The notes below the pieces were generated by a model. The model worked only from the letters and a program-made list of their open reading frames with translations, made no database searches and was not told the origin of the DNA. From a virus: a stretch of DNA of 44,646 bases. Shown piece after piece: positions 22,587 to 35,307 of this stretch. The number at the start of each line of letters is the position of its first letter. Within the stretch, counting starts at the first letter, position 1. The translations under genes and the position numbers were made by a program. The stretch covers positions 1 to 44,646 of IMG/VR virus record IMGVR_UViG_3300046373_000009. One strand, written 5' to 3'.

Positions 22587-22615
22587 ATTATAACATATTA
22601 TAAAGGGTTTGTCAA
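22587..22615 (-). promoter_or_regulatory. Late leftward sigma70 promoter, perfect consensus
   Basis: Read on the minus strand: TTGACA (22610-22615), 17 bases, TATAAT (22587-22592). The start point would be near 22580, 95 bp before the first virion gene. It is the only strong promoter found for the 19-kb virion operon. Since it is consensus, late timing would need a repressor, antisense effect or copy-number effect. Confidence 0.85.
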
Positions 22616-22664: not shown

Positions 22665-22693
22665 TTGACAGATCGGGAAATGTGTGGTATAAT
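22665..22693 (+). promoter_or_regulatory. Early rightward sigma70 promoter, perfect consensus
   Basis: TTGACA (22665-22670), 17 bases, TATAAT (22688-22693). Transcription would start near 22700 and run into the early region with its small genes and folded spacers. The start lies in the centre of a small inverted repeat (22694-22707). Confidence 0.88.
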
Positions 22694-27005: not shown

Positions 27006-27188
27006 ATGTCTCAAAATAACGCCGTAGAGCCCCTAGAACACCTCGCGGCTCTGTTCGTACCGGCAACCTTCTTTAGGCACGCTGACGGCCCGGAAATGCG
27101 CCTTGGCGGGGACGTCTACAGGCGTACTCAGCTAGATGACGGCCCACGGTACCTTCCTGTTGCATCTGGAGTGCCTCAACGTGGCTGA
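27006..27188 (+). CDS. Small protein (60 aa)
   Basis: ATG at 27006 has AAGGGGA upstream and follows element H. The 60-residue product is mixed charged, with a hydrophobic helix (LEHLAALFVPATFF) and a DGPEMRLGGDVYRR segment. Its 3' end overlaps the next gene by eight bases. I do not recognise a family. Confidence 0.6.
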   Translation: MSQNNAVEPLEHLAALFVPATFFRHADGPEMRLGGDVYRRTQLDDGPRYLPVASGVPQRG

Positions 27189-27618
27189 AGTTGGTGATCT
27201 GTACAAACCAAGCCCTCGCGCATTCACGTTAGACCAGATCATTCAACGTGGAGGAGACGCGGGTCACGATACAGTTCTAGTCGCGACCCAAGTCAATGAC
27301 ATTGATGGTGCTGTCCTGTGTGTACGGTCTACAGGACGGGAGTTCTCACTGTGGACAAACCATTTCTGGCACTTAGTTGGAGATGCTACTTTTGTCCCGT
27401 ACGTTGAACAACCCTCCGAGCGGTTCGTGATCTGGAACGAGACCGCCAGGAACCTATTCGTCACGGGTAACAATCCAGACAGCTATTCGTATGAAGAGGC
27501 CGTGGCCAAGTGTCGTGATGTACTCACTCGGCGCAATCATGTTGTCCTCCACATCATCCCCCTCCGCTCCGTGACCCAAGTCAGCGCTGCTGGCGTAGAG
27601 GACTGGCGAGCCGCCTAA
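27181..27618 (+). CDS. Paralogue family 1, member a (145 aa)
   Basis: GTG at 27181 was chosen because the start then aligns with that of the paralogue at 28091 (both AEVG/AEIG). The 145-residue protein shows the family layout: an N-terminal beta-rich domain (about 1-75), the PSERFVIWN strand (about 80), a helix, and the signature HIIPLRSV followed by an AGVEDWRAA tail. Related genes are at 27648, 28091 and 29173. The function is unknown. The family lies directly upstream of the amide-ligase cluster and may be functionally tied to it. Confidence 0.65.
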   Translation: MAEVGDLYKPSPRAFTLDQIIQRGGDAGHDTVLVATQVNDIDGAVLCVRSTGREFSLWTNHFWHLVGDATFVPYVEQPSERFVIWNETARNLFVTGNNPDSYSYEEAVAKCRDVLTRRNHVVLHIIPLRSVTQVSAAGVEDWRAA

Positions 27619-27647
27619 AGCCGCCTCGCTGAGAAAAGGAAGAAACT

Positions 27648-28085
27648 TTGCATCATCCAATTGGAACTAAACTACGAACCACGCGTCCAGCGGCGCCTCC
27701 CCTAGACGGGGTCGGTCTTGTTGTCATCGTTGTTGCTAATCTTCCCGGAGGCTGGAATACGCTCTCGTACGAAGATGGGCGACTAGTCGAGACTATGGGT
27801 CATCGAGTAGGGTGGCAATGTGATATCAACGCACCATTCAACCTGTGGGAGATCGTCGAAGAGGCCCCCGTGATCCCCGAGACGTACACCTTGGCCTACA
27901 TCCGCCCCGACGGCAGTGCTAAAATCGTGTCTGGGGAATATGACACCCTAGACCATGCCCGTGCTATAGCCAACCAAGAGGTTGGTGCTGGAAACTTCTG
28001 GTCCGAAGTCCATATCGTGCCGCTCCGGTCGATCGGTAAGGTCACGCCCGGCGGCGGGTTCGAAGACTATAGAGTTGGAGCGTAA
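27648..28085 (+). CDS. Paralogue family 1, member b (145 aa)
   Basis: TTG at 27648 is preceded by AGGAAGAA. The 145-residue protein begins with HPIGTKLR, like the IGTNLR start of the 29173 paralogue, has a beta-rich first half with WNTLSYEDGR, then PETYTLAYIRPDG, a helix, and ends HIVPLRSIGKV...GGFEDYRVGA. The gene end sits in a 23-bp direct repeat (28074-28096) that recurs at 28628-28650. Confidence 0.7.
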   Translation: MHHPIGTKLRTTRPAAPPLDGVGLVVIVVANLPGGWNTLSYEDGRLVETMGHRVGWQCDINAPFNLWEIVEEAPVIPETYTLAYIRPDGSAKIVSGEYDTLDHARAIANQEVGAGNFWSEVHIVPLRSIGKVTPGGGFEDYRVGA

Positions 28086-28096
28086 GCGACATGGCT
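28074..28096 (+). repeat. 23-bp direct repeat, copy 1
   Basis: These 23 bases cover the last codons of one paralogue, the 5-base spacer and the first two codons of the next gene. They are identical to 28628-28650. The repeat probably marks a duplication or a recombination between paralogues. Confidence 0.9.
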
Positions 28097-28546
28097 GAAA
28101 TAGGTGAACGGTACGAAATAGGTCCACGGTTCCGTGACTTACAAGTAGAACGTGAGTACGGTGTGACTGTAGGTGATATTGTCACTATTGCCGCAAGACA
28201 TGAGACAGTCCAAACGTGGTACATGAACCGTGCTGATGGTACTCGGGTCCCCGGTCATTGGACTGTGGACAATGACGCTGGATGGTTCATCAAGGTCGAA
28301 GATGTCCCGGCCGAGCGGTTCATTGTGCTGTTCGAAGATGCTCGTCACACCCTCAAGGCCTACATGGGTGGGGAAGACGGCGCACAAAACCGTGGTTTCC
28401 GGATATTCAACGGTCTTGATGACCTTGACCACGTGATTGGCACATCTGCTGCAAATGCTGGTGGTGTGCAGTACCACGTGATTCCACTACGGGCCGTGGC
28501 TGGTATTTTGAACGGTGTTCTGGAGCGCTACGACGAAACTGCTTGA
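28091..28546 (+). CDS. Paralogue family 1, member c (151 aa)
   Basis: ATG at 28091 opens a 151-residue member: AEIGERYEI start, a beta-rich N-terminal domain with an acidic DNDAGWF segment, the PAERFIVLFEDARHTL strand-helix matching PSERFVIWNETARNLF of member a, and a HVIPLRAVAGI signature with a divergent tail (LERYDETA). The stop TGA (28544-28546) is part of the -35 box of the promoter that follows. Confidence 0.7.
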   Translation: MAEIGERYEIGPRFRDLQVEREYGVTVGDIVTIAARHETVQTWYMNRADGTRVPGHWTVDNDAGWFIKVEDVPAERFIVLFEDARHTLKAYMGGEDGAQNRGFRIFNGLDDLDHVIGTSAANAGGVQYHVIPLRAVAGILNGVLERYDETA

Positions 28547-28571
28547 CAAAACCGTAATTCCGTGTTATAAT
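28543..28571 (+). promoter_or_regulatory. sigma70 promoter, perfect consensus (middle region)
   Basis: TTGACA (28543-28548), 17 bases, TATAAT (28566-28571). The TGA inside the -35 box is the stop codon of the upstream paralogue. It would drive the rest of family 1 and 2 and the amide-ligase cluster. Confidence 0.9.
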
Positions 28572-28586
28572 ATCCTCATTGAGGAT
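28572..28586. promoter_or_regulatory. Candidate operator at 28543 promoter
   Basis: ATCCTC-ATT-GAGGAT is a perfect 6-bp dyad centred on the predicted transcription start. It corresponds to the dyad at the early promoter (22694-22707), so both promoters may respond to the same regulator. Confidence 0.5.
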
Positions 28587-28606
28587 GACCAAAAGGGAAT
28601 ACATAG

Positions 28607-28639
28607 ATGGATAAACAAACTCCGGACGTTGGAGCGTAA
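28607..28639 (+). pseudogene. Ten-codon remnant of a family 1 gene
   Basis: ATG at 28607, with GGGA nine bases upstream, opens a 10-residue frame ending VGA-stop, identical in its last codons to the end of the gene at 27648-28085 because it lies in the 23-bp repeat. The simplest reading is a deletion that fused the start of one paralogue to the end of another. It may still serve as a leader for the next gene. Confidence 0.5.
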
Positions 28640-28650
28640 GCGACATGGCT
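28628..28650 (+). repeat. 23-bp direct repeat, copy 2
   Basis: Identical to 28074-28096. Here it joins the ten-codon remnant to the start of the 175-residue family 2 gene. Confidence 0.9.
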
Positions 28651-29172
28651 CTAACTCTCTATAGTCACGGTAACTGCTGTGGTGCCGGGATCATCGATGG
28701 CTTCTGGGACCAAGCTGCATACAAGGACAGTCTCATCCGTCGGGGCTACAGTGAAGGTGAGGCTGAACGATCGTCGAAGTCTTACCCCACGCGGGAGGCC
28801 CTACTAGACCAACTCCGGGGCCGCTTGGAGACCGTCGAGGCCAAGTCCAAGGGTCAGATCATGATCGTCCTCAACGAGGCTCAGGGGCCAATCTGGAAGG
28901 ACGACCTGGAGAAGTTCGGGTTCAACCTGATCTGGTCTGATGTCTCCAACCCCAACCACCCCAGCAAGCCCGATAGTCGGTTGTACACCTTCATGCGTGT
29001 GCAGGAGTATTATCGTGGGTCCGATCGGGAAGACGAAGGTCTTGGCCCGAAGGGTGAAGTGGTTCCGTGGCCCGTCAAGCCCCCACCCCCGCCGAAGCCC
29101 CCACCCCCGCCGAAGCCCGCTGTCCCGGCCATCGCCAAGGCTGTTGGTCAGACGTACGGGAGGGCAATCTAG
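28645..29172 (+). CDS. Paralogue family 2, member a, with Pro-rich tail (175 aa)
   Basis: ATG at 28645. The 175-residue protein has a Cys pair at the start (GNCCGAGIIDGF), a charged helical middle, and a core (IMIVLNEAQGPIWKDDLEKFGF...NPNHPS...LYTFM) matching the ILNEFQKDFWEPELFKRNFEL...NPNSD core of the 29551 gene. It then carries an extra Pro/Lys-rich linker with two PPPPPK runs and a basic tail. The function is unknown; the linker suggests a modular or substrate-like protein. Confidence 0.7.
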   Translation: MALTLYSHGNCCGAGIIDGFWDQAAYKDSLIRRGYSEGEAERSSKSYPTREALLDQLRGRLETVEAKSKGQIMIVLNEAQGPIWKDDLEKFGFNLIWSDVSNPNHPSKPDSRLYTFMRVQEYYRGSDREDEGLGPKGEVVPWPVKPPPPPKPPPPPKPAVPAIAKAVGQTYGRAI

Positions 29173-29550
29173 ATGGCGTTTCCAATTGGCACCAATCTTC
29201 GATTAGTCGTTGATTATGGTGGTTGTTCTGTCGGCGATGAATTCGTTTCTGTAGGTGATGCTGGTCCTCGGATCACCGTTGCTCGTAGAGTGGGCGACAA
29301 CAGACAGATTTCTGCTTATGATGATCGGTTTGAGGTCTTTGAACCTGTCGCGGACAAGTACGTCGTCATCGTCAAGCAACCGGATGGTGTCATCAGGACG
29401 TTGGCTAACCGTACTCACGTCAGCAACGATCTAGCTTCGGCCGAGGCTATGGCTCGCAGAGAGTCGGCCCTTGGTAATAACGAGTACTACGTCGTTCCCG
29501 TCCGTGCCGTGGCCAAGTTCGTTGGTGGCGTCAAAGTGGAGGATTTCTAG
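29173..29550 (+). CDS. Paralogue family 1, member d (125 aa)
   Basis: ATG at 29173 directly follows the previous stop. The 125-residue protein opens FPIGTNLRLVVDY, has a VGDEFV strand region, then ADKYVVIVKQPDG, a helix, and YYVVPVRAVAKFVGGVKVEDF. It is the shortest family member and ends right at the ED motif of the shared C-terminal tail. Function unknown. Confidence 0.7.
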   Translation: MAFPIGTNLRLVVDYGGCSVGDEFVSVGDAGPRITVARRVGDNRQISAYDDRFEVFEPVADKYVVIVKQPDGVIRTLANRTHVSNDLASAEAMARRESALGNNEYYVVPVRAVAKFVGGVKVEDF

Positions 29551-29904
29551 TTGCAATTCCAAGATTTCATGGATTGTTGTGGGTTCGAGATCGCTTACGA
29601 CTTCCGCTGTGACGAATGCGACGAATACGGTGAATATGACGACAATTACAGCGATAAAGAAACCATCCTAGAGAAACTCGACAAGGGCCTCTCTCGTCAG
29701 ATGGGTGTCGTCCATGGAGATCTATTCCCTCAGAAGCGCGCAGGCTCGTTCGCCATTCTCAACGAATTCCAGAAAGACTTCTGGGAGCCCGAACTGTTCA
29801 AACGAAATTTTGAGCTGGTTAAGGGCGGCATCAACAACCCCAACAGTGACGCCCAGTTGTTCATTTATCTGGTTGTCCATAAGAAATGGCAGGAAGACGA
29901 ATGA
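29551..29904 (+). CDS. Paralogue family 2, member b (117 aa)
   Basis: TTG at 29551 follows the previous stop without a gap. The 117-residue protein has a CCG start and an acidic CDECDEYGEYDD segment, then the family 2 core (SFAILNEFQKDFWEPELFKRNF...NNPNSD...LFIYLVV). It lacks the proline-rich tail of its partner. The stop overlaps the start of the class I amidotransferase gene (ATGA). Confidence 0.7.
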   Translation: MQFQDFMDCCGFEIAYDFRCDECDEYGEYDDNYSDKETILEKLDKGLSRQMGVVHGDLFPQKRAGSFAILNEFQKDFWEPELFKRNFELVKGGINNPNSDAQLFIYLVVHKKWQEDE

Positions 29905-30560
29905 CGACTGTTTACATCACCCGTGGGGCGTTCCTCGGGGACGTCGAGGACATGTTCCGAGCACGTGGGTTTACCATCACCCACAATCAAGACGAGGCTG
30001 ATGTCCTCTGTCTGACCGGTGGAGCCGACATCGACCCACACCTGTACGCCGAGGCTCCTCTCAGTGGCACGTGGTTCAACCGCAACCGGGACGACCAAGA
30101 GGTGGCGTGCTACAAGCGGGCCGTTGAGTTGGGTCAGTTCATCTTTGCAATTTGCAGGGGTGCGCAGCTTTCGTGTGCCCTGAATGGTGGTCGTCTCTGG
30201 CAGCATATCGAGGGTCACGAGTATATTCACCCAATCCGTGAGATTGCTACTGGTCGTGTTCTACAGACTACTTCAATCCATCATCAGATGATGCGTCCAA
30301 CTCCGGATGCCGAGATCATTGCTGTGTGTAATGAGGCGACCCTCAAGATTGCACAGTTTGATCAATGGCACGCGGGGCAAGACGCACCGGAAGACGAGGT
30401 GGAGGTGTGCTACTTCCCTAAGTCACGGGCTCTGTGTATCCAAGGTCACCCTGAGGTGGCGGACAAAGAGTTTGTTGACTGGTGCTTTGAGTTGATGGAG
30501 AACCGGATCGCTGCTTGTCAAGTAAATAATGAAATGGAGAAGCCGCATTGTGTGGGCTGA
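29901..30560 (+). CDS. Class I glutamine amidotransferase-like hydrolase
   Basis: ATG at 29901 (ATGA overlap) gives a 219-residue protein with the class I triad: nucleophile C85 in the elbow FAICRGAQL, and H183/E185 in QGHPE. The LTGGADIDP segment near 38-46 resembles gamma-glutamyl hydrolase/PuuD-type enzymes. It would hydrolyse a glutamyl amide, either making ammonia or removing a gamma-glutamyl group. Next to amidoligases and an ATP-grasp enzyme it most likely acts on the same product or precursor. Confidence 0.85.
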   Translation: MTTVYITRGAFLGDVEDMFRARGFTITHNQDEADVLCLTGGADIDPHLYAEAPLSGTWFNRNRDDQEVACYKRAVELGQFIFAICRGAQLSCALNGGRLWQHIEGHEYIHPIREIATGRVLQTTSIHHQMMRPTPDAEIIAVCNEATLKIAQFDQWHAGQDAPEDEVEVCYFPKSRALCIQGHPEVADKEFVDWCFELMENRIAACQVNNEMEKPHCVG

Positions 30561-31732
30561 TCGGGGCCGCTGGCAACTTGTATAAAGTCGATGTAGACGC
30601 CTTCAATCAACTCCTCTACGCGGACTACCTACGGGGCTCTCATGCTACTGGCGTGGCCAGCGTCCGGGGCAAGCGCGTTGAAGTCCTCAAGAAAGCTTGG
30701 GACCCTCTGAGCCTGATGCAAACGAAGGCTTACGATCAGATTGTCAGCCCGACCGCAGACGTCTTGATCGGCCACAACCGACACGGCACGATGGGGGACA
30801 ACGGCAACCACGCCAACGCTCACCCGTTCGTGTTCGAGAACGTCGTCGGGGCTCACAACGGCACCCTTGACCGATCGTGTCTCCGAGGTCTGCACGGCAA
30901 TCTGATCTACGACACCGACAGCGAGGCTCTGTACTCCGAGATCAACCAGAACGGCATCGACGCGGCCTTCAGCAAGATCGAAGGTGCGTGGGCTCTGACC
31001 TACGTTGACCGCAAGGACAACACCCTCAACATGGTGCGCAACAATCAGCGTCCCCTGTGCTTCGCCTACAAGAAGGGTCGGAGCGTCATCTACTGGGCGT
31101 CGGAAGTCCAGTTGTTGTGGTGGATCGTCGGACGCAACAAGATCGAGCTTGAGGATGACACCGTCTACGCCCTGCCCGAGGACACCTTGTTCACGTGGAA
31201 GATTGGCCGAGAGATGGCGGCTCCCGAGCAACGAGAACTTAAATCCAGCTATCAACCCCCGTGGAAGAACGAGGCCCTCTACTGGGACAAGGAGGCTTGC
31301 GATTGGGTCCCCAAGCCCGTCGGAGGTCAATCCAACGTGTCGCCCCCTTTTTCGGGGTCCCCCGTCTCCCAACTTATCAAGGAGGTCGAGAACAGTCTGG
31401 ACGAGAAGATCGTAAAGGGGATGTTCCCTGGTACGAAGACGACTACGACCAGTTCCGATACGGTCGTGAAGGGGGTGGTTGGCAAGGGGGTAGCTAACGA
31501 ACAGCCAACGTTTCGTATGCCCTATAAAGACGGGCAAGGTCAAATCCTTGGTAAGCGTCGCTTTGACGAAATCATGGAAAAGAACTGTTGCGTCTATTGC
31601 GGCAACGATACTGTTGTCTGGGGAAGGCCCGCTATTTTCCTCAAGTCCCAAGGAGCCCTAGGGGTTCCCGATTTCCTGTGTACTGAGTGTTGTACTGACC
31701 CTGAAAAAGTTGAACTAGCAAAGGCATTCTAA
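30548..31732 (+). CDS. Class II glutamine amidotransferase (Ntn hydrolase) with C-terminal zinc ribbon
   Basis: TTG at 30548 places Cys at residue 2, the N-terminal nucleophile (mature start CGLIGAAG). Further class II marks are GSHATGVA (about 30-37), IGHNRHGTMG (about 74-83), GAHNGTLD and DSEAL. The C-terminal part (about 345-385) carries two Cys pairs, CVYC and CTECC, a zinc-ribbon-like unit not usual for this family. It would release ammonia from glutamine for the ligases encoded next. No synthase domain is fused. Confidence 0.88.
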   Translation: MCGLIGAAGNLYKVDVDAFNQLLYADYLRGSHATGVASVRGKRVEVLKKAWDPLSLMQTKAYDQIVSPTADVLIGHNRHGTMGDNGNHANAHPFVFENVVGAHNGTLDRSCLRGLHGNLIYDTDSEALYSEINQNGIDAAFSKIEGAWALTYVDRKDNTLNMVRNNQRPLCFAYKKGRSVIYWASEVQLLWWIVGRNKIELEDDTVYALPEDTLFTWKIGREMAAPEQRELKSSYQPPWKNEALYWDKEACDWVPKPVGGQSNVSPPFSGSPVSQLIKEVENSLDEKIVKGMFPGTKTTTTSSDTVVKGVVGKGVANEQPTFRMPYKDGQGQILGKRRFDEIMEKNCCVYCGNDTVVWGRPAIFLKSQGALGVPDFLCTECCTDPEKVELAKAF

Positions 31733-31735
31733 ACA

Positions 31736-32560
31736 ATGGTTAAGGTTCTGCTGGGTTGCGATCCCGAGTTGTTTGTTCGCAATCCCAATTCCAAAGCGTA
31801 CATCTCTGCCCACAACATGATCACGGGCACCAAGGACCACCCCCAGTTCGTCAAAGACGGTATGGTGCAGGTGGACGGCACGGCTCTGGAGTTTGGCATC
31901 GACCCCGCCTCGAATGAGGACGAATGGGTTAGCCGGATCAACTCCGTCACTGGTCAACTTCGCCAGATGATCGACCCCGGCTACGAGATTGTCGGTCACG
32001 CTACGGCCACCTTCGAGCCCGCGTACTTCGAGGCCCTTCCGCGCTACGCCAAGGAACTTGGGTGTGAGCCCGACTACAACGCGTGGAGTGGCGACCAGAA
32101 TGTGCGTCCCAAAGGCGATCGACCGTTCCGCACCGGGGCTGGTCACATCCACATTGGCTGGACCCAAGACCAAGACCCGCGAGACTTCAACCACTTCGAG
32201 AAGTGCCGTGAGGTGGCCCGTCAGATGGACTACTACCTCGGCATCCAAAGCCTCCTGTGGGACAAGGACAGCAGTCGTCGGGAACTGTACGGCAAAGCGG
32301 GTGCGTTCCGGCCCAAGCCCTATGGTGTCGAGTACCGCACTCTGAGCAATGCTTGGGTCAACAACGAACTGTTGATGCGCTGGGTCTACCGGGCGGCTCT
32401 CAAGGGCGCTACGGAGCTTCTCGTGAACCAGAAAGATGCGGCCACCGAGTACGGCACTCTGGCCCGAGACATTATCGACAACAACGTGGTGGACTGGCAG
32501 TCGAAGAACAAGATTGAGCTCGGCTTGGTCAACCCTCCCACCCCCCGAATGGCGGCGTAA
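31736..32560 (+). CDS. phiEco32-type COOH-NH2 amidoligase
   Basis: The 274-residue protein has the glutamine-synthetase-like pattern of phiEco32-type amidoligases: GCDPELFV at the start, VDGTALEFGIDPA (about 46-58), the TGAGHIHIGW motif (about 133-142) and VEYRTLSNAWV (about 201-211). The acidic and His residues in these motifs bind ATP and metal. The enzyme is predicted to join a carboxyl and an amine, probably between peptides or amino acids. The substrate is unknown. Four bases separate it from the preceding stop. Confidence 0.85.
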   Translation: MVKVLLGCDPELFVRNPNSKAYISAHNMITGTKDHPQFVKDGMVQVDGTALEFGIDPASNEDEWVSRINSVTGQLRQMIDPGYEIVGHATATFEPAYFEALPRYAKELGCEPDYNAWSGDQNVRPKGDRPFRTGAGHIHIGWTQDQDPRDFNHFEKCREVARQMDYYLGIQSLLWDKDSSRRELYGKAGAFRPKPYGVEYRTLSNAWVNNELLMRWVYRAALKGATELLVNQKDAATEYGTLARDIIDNNVVDWQSKNKIELGLVNPPTPRMAA

Positions 32561-32561
32561 G

Positions 32562-32744
32562 ATGTCTGAACTCACGGCTATTCAAGAATTTGGGAACGCT
32601 GTCCTACGGCTAAGAAAAGAGTACCCAGGTTGTTACCTACAACTCTTGACACCTGCTGATGATTACGAAACGTCTTTCGATCTTTCCTTCACTACCGAAC
32701 TATCGATTGTGGAAAAGAACCCTAAAATCCAGGTGAAAATCTAG
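32562..32744 (+). CDS. Small accessory protein of the amide-ligase cluster (60 aa)
   Basis: ATG at 32562 starts one base after the previous stop, and the frame ends at 32744 where the next gene's GTG begins (TAGTG). The 60-residue product is a helical start plus an acidic, beta-rich end (SFDLSFTTELSIVEKN). Its position between the ligases makes it a candidate substrate or carrier; no family is recognised. Confidence 0.6.
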   Translation: MSELTAIQEFGNAVLRLRKEYPGCYLQLLTPADDYETSFDLSFTTELSIVEKNPKIQVKI

Positions 32745-33394
32745 TGGGCTGTATCCCTTATCAAACCGTTGATGACGCTTCTCGTTGTCTTCGTCACTCG
32801 ATCATCATGTACAACGACAACCCGGTCTTTGTTCGTTCGGTTGACGGTCCCGGCGGTGTTGTCGACCTAGAGGATATTCGTATCCACGCTGATCAACTGC
32901 CTTTCCGGTCTGGTGAACCTCGGATGACCTTCCCGCTGTCTGATCCCCTCGTGGACATCAGCAACATGCGGATCGGATACGCCAACAGCACCCACGACGC
33001 CGTGTGGTGTGAACGGTTCCCCAATCGTGGCAACACTCAGGGGCTCAACGAGACCAACGTTCAGACGACAGTGCTCCCCCGTCCGGATGGTGACGCCCCA
33101 CACTATGGCATCATCGACCTTTGCTCTGGTTCGTCGCTTATCGACATGTTCAAGCAGAACTACCCCGATGTGAAGCACATTGTGGCTAAGTTCGACAGCA
33201 CGGGTCGGTTTGGGTCCGCCGCCTTTAGTCGAGTGTTTGCCCTGTCGAAGGACAGCTTCCGAGGTGACTACTTGATCCACTACAAGGGTACTCCGGTGGC
33301 CTTTGGTGACATCCATAACGGGGTCAACTTGAACAAGAACTATCGACACCTCAAAGAACAACTTGTGGAGTACGGAATTAATGTCGCCGCCTAA
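32744..33394 (+). CDS. Amide-ligase cluster protein of unknown fold (216 aa)
   Basis: GTG at 32744. The 216-residue protein has a beta-rich first half (IIMYNDNPVFVRSVDG...LEDIRIHADQLPF) and a second half with IGYANSTHDAVW, then KFDSTGRFGSAAFSRVFALS and HYKGTPVAFGDIHNG. No catalytic motif is certain. Its persistent place between the two ligases and the coupled start (33381 lies inside its end) suggest it works with them. Confidence 0.65.
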   Translation: MGCIPYQTVDDASRCLRHSIIMYNDNPVFVRSVDGPGGVVDLEDIRIHADQLPFRSGEPRMTFPLSDPLVDISNMRIGYANSTHDAVWCERFPNRGNTQGLNETNVQTTVLPRPDGDAPHYGIIDLCSGSSLIDMFKQNYPDVKHIVAKFDSTGRFGSAAFSRVFALSKDSFRGDYLIHYKGTPVAFGDIHNGVNLNKNYRHLKEQLVEYGINVAA

Positions 33395-34514
33395 CAATTT
33401 CTACGACAAAACTATTCGAACTGTCTTCGCCTTGGGTGGGGCCCCGAAGGGTGAAGTCGGGATCGAGATCGAAGTAGAGGGTACTCGCCTCCCCGGTATG
33501 TTTGTCGACCAGACCACGGGCAACATTGCGGCTCAGATGCGCTATCACTGGCGTACCGAGAATGACGGCTCTCTTCGCAATCTTCGTCCCGGTGACCTGA
33601 GTGCGGAATACGTCCTGCGTGAGCCGGTTGATCGATCCGCACTCGACAAGGTTCTCGACTACTTCACCAAGAAGTGGGAAGAAGCCGGGGCTACGTCGTA
33701 CAACTCCTATCGGACCAGTGTCCACGTCCACATCAACGTGTCTGACTGGACTGTTCGGCGTGTGTACTCGTTCCTGACTGCCTACTTCATCCTTGAGGAG
33801 CTTCTGACCGAGTTCGCTGATGGTGGCACCAAGAGCCGGGTGGCCAATCGTTTCTGTCTCCGTCTCAAGGATGCTGAGTTCATCTCGAACCAGCTTCAGG
33901 ATGCTCTCAAGCGCAACATGCGTGGTCGGTTCTCTGAGGGTAATCTCAAGTACGGGGCGGTCAACATTGCTGCCCTCAGCAAGTACGGTTCGTTGGAGTT
34001 CCGAGCCCTGCGTGGTACGACCGATACTGGTTTGATCAAGACGTGGACTAAGCTTCTCCTGGCTATTAAAGATTACTCGGAGAAGTTCGATTATCCACAT
34101 CACATCATTCAGGAGTTCTCTGAGCGAGGTCCGGATGAGTTCATTCGACGTATCCTCGGGGCTGACGCGGATCATCTTGTCGGTTCGACCAACTATCGAG
34201 ACAAGCTGTTTGACGGTATGAGACTGGCTCAGGATGTGGCGTTCGCTACGAACTGGGAAGCACCTCAGGCTGTCAAGGAAGAAGTGGTTAAGAAACTCGA
34301 CATGTACTTTACTGACTTTGGTCAAGTCAATGCGGAACCCGTTGATGATTGGGTCGTTCCCGCCCCTGAGCCCCGCATTCGTGGTCGTATCCCACCTATC
34401 CCGGCCGGTTGGGGTGAAGTGCGAGCACCCGCCGTGCGTGACACAGTTCGAATGCAAGAACAGATTGCCGCGATCATGCGGGCTGGTAACGCTCAATACG
34501 GAAGGCCGATCTAG
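33381..34514 (+). CDS. Amidoligase-2 family enzyme
   Basis: I chose ATG at 33381 (SPPNNFYD start); the longer frame has no RBS. The 377-residue protein has GIEIEVEG (about 26-33), HWRTENDGSL (about 56-65), AEYVLREP (about 74-81), the SVHVHINVS motif (about 114-122) and SLEFRALRGTTD (about 204-215), all marks of the Amidoligase_2 branch of the glutamine-synthetase fold. It should form an amide or peptide bond using ATP. The Pro-rich tail (residues 330-375) is unusual. It is the second ligase of the cluster. Confidence 0.85.
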   Translation: MSPPNNFYDKTIRTVFALGGAPKGEVGIEIEVEGTRLPGMFVDQTTGNIAAQMRYHWRTENDGSLRNLRPGDLSAEYVLREPVDRSALDKVLDYFTKKWEEAGATSYNSYRTSVHVHINVSDWTVRRVYSFLTAYFILEELLTEFADGGTKSRVANRFCLRLKDAEFISNQLQDALKRNMRGRFSEGNLKYGAVNIAALSKYGSLEFRALRGTTDTGLIKTWTKLLLAIKDYSEKFDYPHHIIQEFSERGPDEFIRRILGADADHLVGSTNYRDKLFDGMRLAQDVAFATNWEAPQAVKEEVVKKLDMYFTDFGQVNAEPVDDWVVPAPEPRIRGRIPPIPAGWGEVRAPAVRDTVRMQEQIAAIMRAGNAQYGRPI

Positions 34515-35282
34515 ATGAGCATCAAACTCTTCGCCCACAATCCGAATTCCGAGGGTGCTAAAGCCCTGAGTGCTGCTCTGGGGATAAACCGACTTCGACA
34601 CGAGGGGAGCCGATGGCGACCAAGGACGGATGACAAGGTGATCAACTGGGGGTCTAGTCGGGCTCTTGATTATGGCCCAGCCATGATCATCAACAATCCG
34701 GTGTTTGTTCAACGAGCCTCGAACAAACTTCAATTCTTTCAGCAACTTGATCAGTTTGAGTACGATCAGGCTGGGGAAAATTGTCGTGTCCCAGAATGGA
34801 CGACAGACATCAATGTAGCCCGTACGTGGCTACCCGAGACCAAGGTTGTTTGTCGTACCCTCTTGACAAGTCACTCTGGAAATGGTATAATCATAGCGTC
34901 GGAGATCGACCAAGTTGTCCCAGCCCCCCTTTACACCCGCTATGTTAAAAAACAAGCTGAGTACCGTGTACACATCGTCCGGGGACGTATTATTGACGTA
35001 CAACGGAAAATCCGGGACCCTGACAATACCCCGGTGGACTGGCACGTCCGGTCACATCGCAATGGCTTCATCTTCGTTCGTTCGGGTTTTGAACTCCCTG
35101 TGGATGCGGAGACCCAATCTCTCCGTGCGTTTCGAGCCAGCGGACTAGACTTCGGGGCCGTCGACTGTATCATCGATCGAGACGGAAATGCCTGGGTGCT
35201 TGAGTGTAACACAGCCCCAGGTCTAGTTGGGACCACTGTAACTAAATACGCAGACGCTTTCCGAGAAGCATTTTTTACTTGA
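34515..35282 (+). CDS. ATP-grasp ligase (RimK-like)
   Basis: ATG at 34515 right after the previous stop. The 255-residue enzyme shows ATP-grasp marks: QAEYRVHIVRGRIIDVQRKIR (about 152-172, nucleotide-binding Lys/Arg region), DFGAVDCIIDRDGNAWVLECNTAPGL (about 211-236) with the metal-binding Glu-x-Asn. Related enzymes join amino acids to peptide ends, as RimK does with glutamate. Its stop TGA forms part of the -35 box of the next promoter. A further perfect promoter lies inside the gene. Confidence 0.85.
   Translation: MSIKLFAHNPNSEGAKALSAALGINRLRHEGSRWRPRTDDKVINWGSSRALDYGPAMIINNPVFVQRASNKLQFFQQLDQFEYDQAGENCRVPEWTTDINVARTWLPETKVVCRTLLTSHSGNGIIIASEIDQVVPAPLYTRYVKKQAEYRVHIVRGRIIDVQRKIRDPDNTPVDWHVRSHRNGFIFVRSGFELPVDAETQSLRAFRASGLDFGAVDCIIDRDGNAWVLECNTAPGLVGTTVTKYADAFREAFFT
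34863..34891 (+). promoter_or_regulatory. sigma70 promoter consensus inside the ATP-grasp gene
   Basis: TTGACA (34863-34868), 17 bases, TATAAT (34886-34891), fully inside the coding frame. The motif is perfect, but no gene start follows before 35338, so it may drive the downstream HNH gene with a long leader, or be a chance match. Confidence 0.65.
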
Positions 35283-35307
35283 CAAATGACTCCGGGTATG
35301 TTATAAT
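35279..35307 (+). promoter_or_regulatory. sigma70 promoter, perfect consensus, before HNH gene
   Basis: TTGACA (35279-35284), 17 bases, TATAAT (35302-35307); the -35 box overlaps the ATP-grasp stop codon. An inverted repeat ACTCCGGG (35289-35296) / CCCGGAGT (35325-35332) spans the -10 box, and its right arm includes the Shine-Dalgarno of the HNH gene. Confidence 0.88.

Follow-up and report, generated by a model that had tools for sequence, protein, structure and literature searches.

Genes of the cassette

The DNA analyzed here is the virus record IMGVR_UViG_3300046373_000009 of IMG/VR, taken over its full 44,646 bases (henceforth referred to as the window) and derived from an uncultivated virus of bacteria. 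Structural genes for a terminase, a portal and a scaffold protein lie on the minus strand, and the plus strand carries genes for ribonucleotide reductase, ThyX, a primase/helicase, DNA polymerase, a Cas4-type exonuclease and a Holliday-junction-type nuclease. The subject of this report is a run of plus-strand genes at 29901-35282, henceforth referred to as the cassette, which encodes a relative of gamma-glutamyl hydrolases, a class II glutaminase, three predicted ATP-dependent ligases and two further proteins of 60 and 216 residues. An earlier note on this DNA had described the run as seven coupled genes, and the description holds: all seven are real open reading frames (ORFs), and each junction between them is either an overlap of at most 14 nucleotides (nt) or a gap of at most 3 nt. 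The active-site residues, which the earlier note had singled out for checking in alignments, are conserved when judged over 25-37 relatives, as detailed for each enzyme below.

The first gene (29901..30560, plus strand) had been labelled a class I glutamine amidotransferase, which would act as an ammonia donor. The protein is a Cys-His-Glu hydrolase of the class I amidotransferase fold, but this assignment was rejected because it scores 20.5 bits against the plain GATase model of Pfam (PF00117), below the cut-off of 22.8, and 62.2 bits (7.7e-17) against Peptidase_C26 (PF07722), far above the cut-off of 20.5. Its nearest relatives in the PDB are the C26 gamma-glutamyl hydrolases Lin1909 and PuuD. 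Weak matches were obtained to models of PuuD and of gamma-glutamyl-CDP-amidate hydrolase; nothing exceeded its cut-off in an NCBIfam scan, where the scores for the PuuD and EgtC models fell far below the curated values. The catalytic triad C85-H183-E185 and an HHQ motif (residues 127-129) are conserved among relatives, and five other cassette C26 proteins also exceed the Pfam cut-off for this family.

The second gene (30548..31732, plus strand; TTG start) encodes a class II, or N-terminal nucleophile (Ntn), glutaminase with a GATase_6 score of 56 bits (4.9e-15), above the Pfam cut-off, and profile matches to GlmS and PurF. Cys2, Arg78, Asn104-Gly105 and Asp124 are conserved, and the C-terminus, following a variable linker, forms a CxxC...CxxC zinc ribbon. 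A LysW-like amino-group carrier was considered for this domain and dropped, the ribbon being its sole support.

Two of the ligases belong to the glutamine-synthetase-like group. The first (31736..32560, plus strand; 274 residues) is a COOH-NH2 ligase (PF14395) scoring 34 bits, above the Pfam cut-off, and the second (33381..34514, plus strand) is an Amidoligase_2 protein (PF12224; 51 bits, 1.8e-13, likewise above the cut-off) in which the ExExE, HxH and E(F)R motifs are intact. Relatives of both enzymes conserve their E, HxH and E.R motifs, and sequence-profile searches of the PDB with either protein returned no match. The third ligase (34515..35282, plus strand) is an ATP-grasp enzyme identified through PHROG 2599 (5e-76), its Pfam matches being sub-threshold only. 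The class II glutaminase, the two amidoligases and the ATP-grasp ligase named in the earlier note were thus all upheld. The nearest solved relatives of the ATP-grasp enzyme are RimK alpha-L-glutamate ligases (profile match 6e-16), with D-Ala-D-Ala ligases as secondary matches (2e-8 for Ddl), and K71, E149, R151, K165, D217, E230 and N232 are invariant. Against the R2K Pfam models the window protein reaches 20.4 bits (cut-off 26.2); among 25 relatives, 14 match RimK and four match R2K_2. In several cassettes (L080, L083 and others) two ATP-grasp genes flank the block running from the glutaminase to Amidoligase_2.

Recurrence of the cassette in phages

An IMG/VR scan with the window ligase yielded 35 loci, and a profile scan matched at least 591 stretches. 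Eighty of the latter were retained, and the addition of annotated phages and of two contigs from bacterial bins brought the collection to 120 ligase loci, mostly on phage contigs. One of two standard orders (C26, glutaminase, ligase, 216-residue partner, Amidoligase_2, ATP-grasp) is found in 58 of the 120, and most of the others differ only by the position of the ATP-grasp gene, an extra cyclotransferase gene or truncation. The conserved set recurs in phiEco32, UFV-P2/LUZ24-like phages, PA11, RIO-1 and crAss-like phages. More than 300 sequenced phages carry the cassette, among them crAss-like phages of the gut and phages that infect E. coli, Pseudomonas and Vibrio, and on environmental virus contigs it was matched in at least about 590 stretches.

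The earlier note had likened the run to the systems predicted in phages such as phiEco32, with three ATP-dependent ligations encoded in a single operon and substrates not established, and the recurrence of the gene set in phiEco32 and other phages bears this out. Cassettes of this type (phiEco32, RIO-1, PSA-HP1, LUZ24, PA11, CW02) share with the window the COOH-NH2 ligase, a partner of ~200 residues, Amidoligase_2, the class II glutaminase, the ATP-grasp ligase, a gamma-glutamyl-cleaving enzyme and a location in the early region near the primase/helicase. They differ in that the cleaving enzyme is C26 in the window and a gamma-glutamyl cyclotransferase (GGCT) in phiEco32, RIO-1 and UFV-P2, and in that the window contains an orphan ORF of 60 residues and lacks an upstream gene of ~300 residues found in 70 relatives. 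The closest arrangements are those of PA11 and KZY1-k141_1938105 (Zobellviridae), in which C26, glutaminase, ligase, partner, Amidoligase_2 and ATP-grasp genes follow in near-identical order, although their ligases are ~45-50% identical to that of the window, long nucleotide similarity is absent and, in PA11, two small ORFs separate C26 from the glutaminase. Since a system of this kind was already known as a prediction and PA11 has the same gene order, the window operon is a further example of it and not a new kind. The cassette has reportedly been noted since 2009 and is said to have been called a peptidoglycan-modification module without test. The alternation of C26 with GGCT and the universality of the 216-residue partner, both described below, seem to be unreported within one open-access literature library. 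PADLOC returned no match, so the cassette does not belong to the defence systems known so far.

Alternation of C26 and cyclotransferase

The slot occupied by C26 in the window is filled by C26 in most loci and by GGCT elsewhere, as checked with Pfam on five members of each. C26 alone is present in 82 of the 120 loci, both enzymes in 15, GGCT alone in 11 and neither in 12; the window itself has C26, and no GGCT was found in it. Eleven of the 12 loci with neither enzyme end at a contig edge just upstream, and the twelfth is a 5.5-kb fragment with the ligase only. One near-complete contig of this group carries C26 at its opposite end, which brings the loci with C26 and/or GGCT to 109 of 120. If the two enzymes were distributed independently, the expected number lacking both would be about 8 among the 108 carriers (Fisher p about 2e-8); the p-value is one that is indicative only, because the loci share ancestry and the table is restricted to those with at least one of the two. 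On the ligase tree, the GGCT-only state must have arisen three times or more. Within a single crAss-like subfamily the same cassette carries C26 in cr108_1 and GGCT in Cellulophaga phage phi14:2.

Known members of the C26 and cyclotransferase groups (PuuD, SpuA and the GGACT family) act on gamma-glutamyl amines, and it is to a gamma-glutamyl amine, as common denominator, that C26, GGCT and the fold of the first ligase point. The working analogy is with PuuA/PuuD, SpuA, EgtA/EgtC of ergothioneine synthesis and BtrG of butirosin synthesis, in which a ligase of the glutamine-synthetase fold adds a gamma-glutamyl group that is taken off again by an enzyme of the C26, Ntn or cyclotransferase type; the phage set differs by two more ligases and a phage-only subunit. 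Because C26 and GGCT alternate, and because the 216-residue protein is a core, phage-only subunit, a gamma-glutamyl-amine intermediate is proposed. The operon is accordingly viewed, with modest confidence, as an early-expressed, phage-specific biosynthetic pathway that proceeds via a removable gamma-glutamyl group. A minimal version in L030-L032, in which a C26 protein of 389 residues lies beside the ligase (3.7-5.7 kb in L030) and no other cassette genes were detected within 8 kb, supports the gamma-glutamyl reading.

The same enzymes have been read differently, as a means by which the three ligases would put unusual amide links on cytoplasmic precursors of peptidoglycan or the envelope and so block superinfection or ready the wall for lysis. 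This appears in print as the "peptidoglycan modification cassette" of RIO-1-like phages (PMC5498523) and is repeated for LUZ24-like phages (PMC11945000) and OM43 phages (PMC10580990). The label is also used for phiEco32. Superinfection exclusion would suit early expression, and the secondary similarity of the ATP-grasp enzyme to D-Ala-D-Ala ligases agrees with it; by the profile values given above, however, that enzyme is nearer RimK than Ddl, and the cassette set contains no envelope transferase- or flippase-like gene. The cyclotransferase reaction depends on the glutamyl residue having its alpha-amino group free, whereas the D-Glu of a stem peptide is acylated there, so GGCT is unlikely to degrade peptidoglycan, and GGCT and C26 cannot simply be "peptidoglycan degradation" enzymes. 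Envelope modification is considered unlikely, although the cell wall may be the destination of the product.

Near absence from bacterial genomes

A scan of 84,980 species, its sensitivity limited to a single seven-residue pattern, found two contigs with the ligase, and a profile search of sampled Pseudomonadota genomes found the system in 1 of 299; of 14 controls, 0 had it. On these counts the system is essentially viral. In one bacterial metagenome bin (G001, the genome behind locus L120) two distinct cassette ligases occur on contigs C220 and C117, which are probably binned phage contigs.

These counts bear on the proposal that the genes serve an auxiliary metabolism of the nitrogen or glutathione type that would nourish the infected cell by passing glutamine nitrogen on to glutamate and further amino acids. 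It was put forward for phage ZRK32, which carries an amidotransferase, an amidoligase, a "glutathione synthase" and GGCT, with growth promoted with nitrate or ammonia (PMC10945688). Near absence of the set from bacterial genomes indicates that it is not a borrowed host pathway, and plain assimilation would need neither three ligases nor a conserved phage-only subunit; we regard this explanation as very improbable.

Ligase fold and the 216-residue partner

The first ligase has the glutamine-synthetase/gamma-glutamylcysteine-synthetase fold. Its AlphaFold2 model, with a predicted local distance difference test (pLDDT) score of 92.6, aligns with YbdK (Z 15.2), PafA (13.4), Dop (13.3), a plant glutamate-cysteine ligase (GCL; 13.3) and GshAB (13.1); YbdK, GCL, PafA and GshAB are enzymes that activate a gamma-carboxylate.

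The 216-residue protein (32744..33394, plus strand; PHROG 11055) is encoded between the two amidoligases. Its model (pLDDT 92.7) consists of an N-terminal Tudor/SH3-like barrel, whose resemblance to such domains is weak (Z 5.8 at best), and a C-terminal domain. A Foldseek search of the PDB gave no match, and profile comparison placed it with phi32_85 of phiEco32 (probability 95) and ORF22 of UFV-P2 (probability 91); its other matches are to phage proteins of the same cassette only. The genes for ligase, partner and Amidoligase_2 almost always follow one another directly and overlap at their ends (median gaps -8 and -11 nt). The earlier note had put the protein forward as a substrate carrier to be examined by structure prediction; the model shows instead a folded protein, which is a core, phage-only subunit of the cassette and not a carrier-like peptide. 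In L034 (7022-8803) the partner is fused to ~390 extra N-terminal residues with a duplicated motif, which could hint at an interaction partner. A long N-terminal extension of Amidoligase_2 in L016, L022 and L024 was considered as a fused copy of the 216-residue partner and set aside, the similarity not being significant.

The fold of the first ligase also brings in the suggestion of the earlier note that a host or virion protein receives a peptide or amino acid tag; PafA/Pup, RimK and the R2K enzymes would be models for this. The alignments with PafA and Dop fit this, as do the RimK-like character of the ATP-grasp enzyme and its sub-threshold similarity to R2K_2; for R2K enzymes, modification of host proteins has been predicted (PMC4431377). 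The alignment with YbdK-type metabolite ligases is slightly better, however, and the hydrolases of the C26/GGCT slot are of the type that acts on small gamma-glutamyl amines. PafA and Dop share the fold of the phage ligase but are about 450-500 residues long, against 274, and the cassette has no gene for a Pup-like tag; a search in and beside the cassettes revealed no conserved gene for a small tag or carrier. The one small ORF of the window run, of 60 residues (32562..32744, plus strand), is coupled at both ends and is an orphan, with no relative detected in the 120 ligase loci and no Pfam or PHROG family above noise. Tagging of a protein is therefore judged improbable. Since the search turned up no conserved tag or carrier of ribosomal origin, the cassette more probably yields a metabolite or small conjugate: the favoured product is a small molecule, or a conjugate of low molecular weight, formed inside the infected cell rather than a ribosomally made peptide tag.

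Promoters and time of expression

Six exact copies of an extended sigma-70-type promoter (TTGACA, a 17-nt spacer and TATAAT, each with TG) are present in the window, where 0.10 would be expected by chance even with one mismatch allowed. One of them (28543..28571, plus strand) is intergenic, lies ahead of the gene at 28645 and probably marks where the operon begins. The genes at 28645, 29173 and 29551 form an unbroken series with the seven described above; given this contiguity and the perfect promoter, the transcription unit probably comprises ten genes. The seven-gene extent given by the earlier note therefore stands as a coupled run, and the unit is likely longer by three genes. Two further perfect promoter-like sites lie within the ATP-grasp gene (34863..34891, plus strand) and at the 3' end of the cassette (35279..35307, plus strand), the latter driving downstream genes.

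Transcription of the same cassette in the related phage PSA-HP1 begins immediately upon infection (PMC7082346). Together with the promoter at 28543 this argues for early expression, the simplest reading being that the cassette is an early unit transcribed by the host RNA polymerase. Decoration of the virion, as the earlier note had envisaged, is disfavoured, since the immediate expression seen in PSA-HP1 better fits early host manipulation or metabolism.

The position of the cassette, in the DNA-metabolism half of the window and upstream of thyX, the primase/helicase and DNA polymerase genes, would agree with the attachment of an amino-acid-derived group to phage DNA or to some other nucleic acid. 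Ordinary early genes occupy the same region, though, and a scan of genes in or near the cassette found no base-modifying enzyme (hydroxymethylase, kinase or DpdA). Of the explanations considered, this one is accorded the least credence and is thought extremely improbable.

The remaining perfect sites (12/12 positions) are at 22587-22615 on the minus strand and at 22665-22693 and 37023 on the plus strand. The divergent pair at 22.6 kb marks the boundary between the late minus-strand block and the early plus-strand block.

Proposed pathway

In the proposed gamma-glutamyl pathway, the COOH-NH2 ligase would link glutamate, through its gamma-carboxylate, to an amine at the expense of ATP, and Amidoligase_2 and the RimK-like ATP-grasp enzyme would each form one further amide bond. 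The class II glutaminase may supply ammonia or glutamate from glutamine, or may trim gamma-glutamyl groups in the manner of EgtC. A structural or tethering role in the ligase pair is suggested for the 216-residue protein because of its fixed place between the two genes of the glutamine-synthetase fold. Finally, C26, or in relatives GGCT instead or as well, would take off the gamma-glutamyl cap. In its fullest form the proposal is offered tentatively: a pathway almost exclusive to viruses may make an undescribed amide-linked metabolite within minutes of infection by gamma-glutamyl protection and deprotection, with C26 and GGCT interchangeable across podoviruses and crAss-like phages.

Several points weigh against the gamma-glutamyl pathway. 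The substrate and product of the cassette are not established, and fold and family do not fix a substrate: among the ligases of the glutamine-synthetase fold is PafA, whose targets are proteins. In 15 loci C26 and GGCT are found together and hence are not strict alternatives, and the counts are not independent, since most loci are related by descent and the ligase served as query in gathering them. The lack of a recurrent small ORF family in or next to the cassettes favours the pathway, but the search would have missed carriers shorter than 35 residues and any tag whose gene lies in another part of the genome.

The presence of an enzyme that cleaves gamma-glutamyl amines in essentially every complete cassette provides a first specific chemical prediction, namely that gamma-glutamyl intermediates would accumulate upon removal of C26 or GGCT. 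The status of the 216-residue protein as a core subunit provides a protein target for co-purification.

Genes upstream of the cassette

The three genes that precede C26 in the probable operon encode small proteins. The first (28645..29172, plus strand; 175 residues) is an accessory member of the "CCG" family, matched by the hidden Markov model (HMM) of neighbour-family cmp16 at 4e-17 and paralogous to the product of 29551-29904 at 1e-6. The second (29173..29550, plus strand; 125 residues), also accessory, is a weak paralogue of 27648-28085 (BLASTP 6e-9), and the third (29551..29904, plus strand; 117 residues) is a "CCG" family protein (cmp16 HMM 2e-27) whose stop codon overlaps the start of the C26 gene. 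Weak mutual similarity extends through the small genes of 27136-29904, which form one paralogue set at 27136, 27648, 28091 and 29173 and a second at 28645 and 29551; none of them belongs to a Pfam or PHROG family.

In 70 loci (L006, L039, L041 and 67 others) the C26/GGCT slot is directly preceded by a conserved family of ~300 residues, cmp8, which was not found in the window and is a possible extra component of the cassette. No kinship was detected between cmp8 and a second upstream family, cmp24, nor of either with phi32_87/88 or with ORF19/20 of UFV-P2. The "CCG" family also adjoins the cassette in about 23 related loci.

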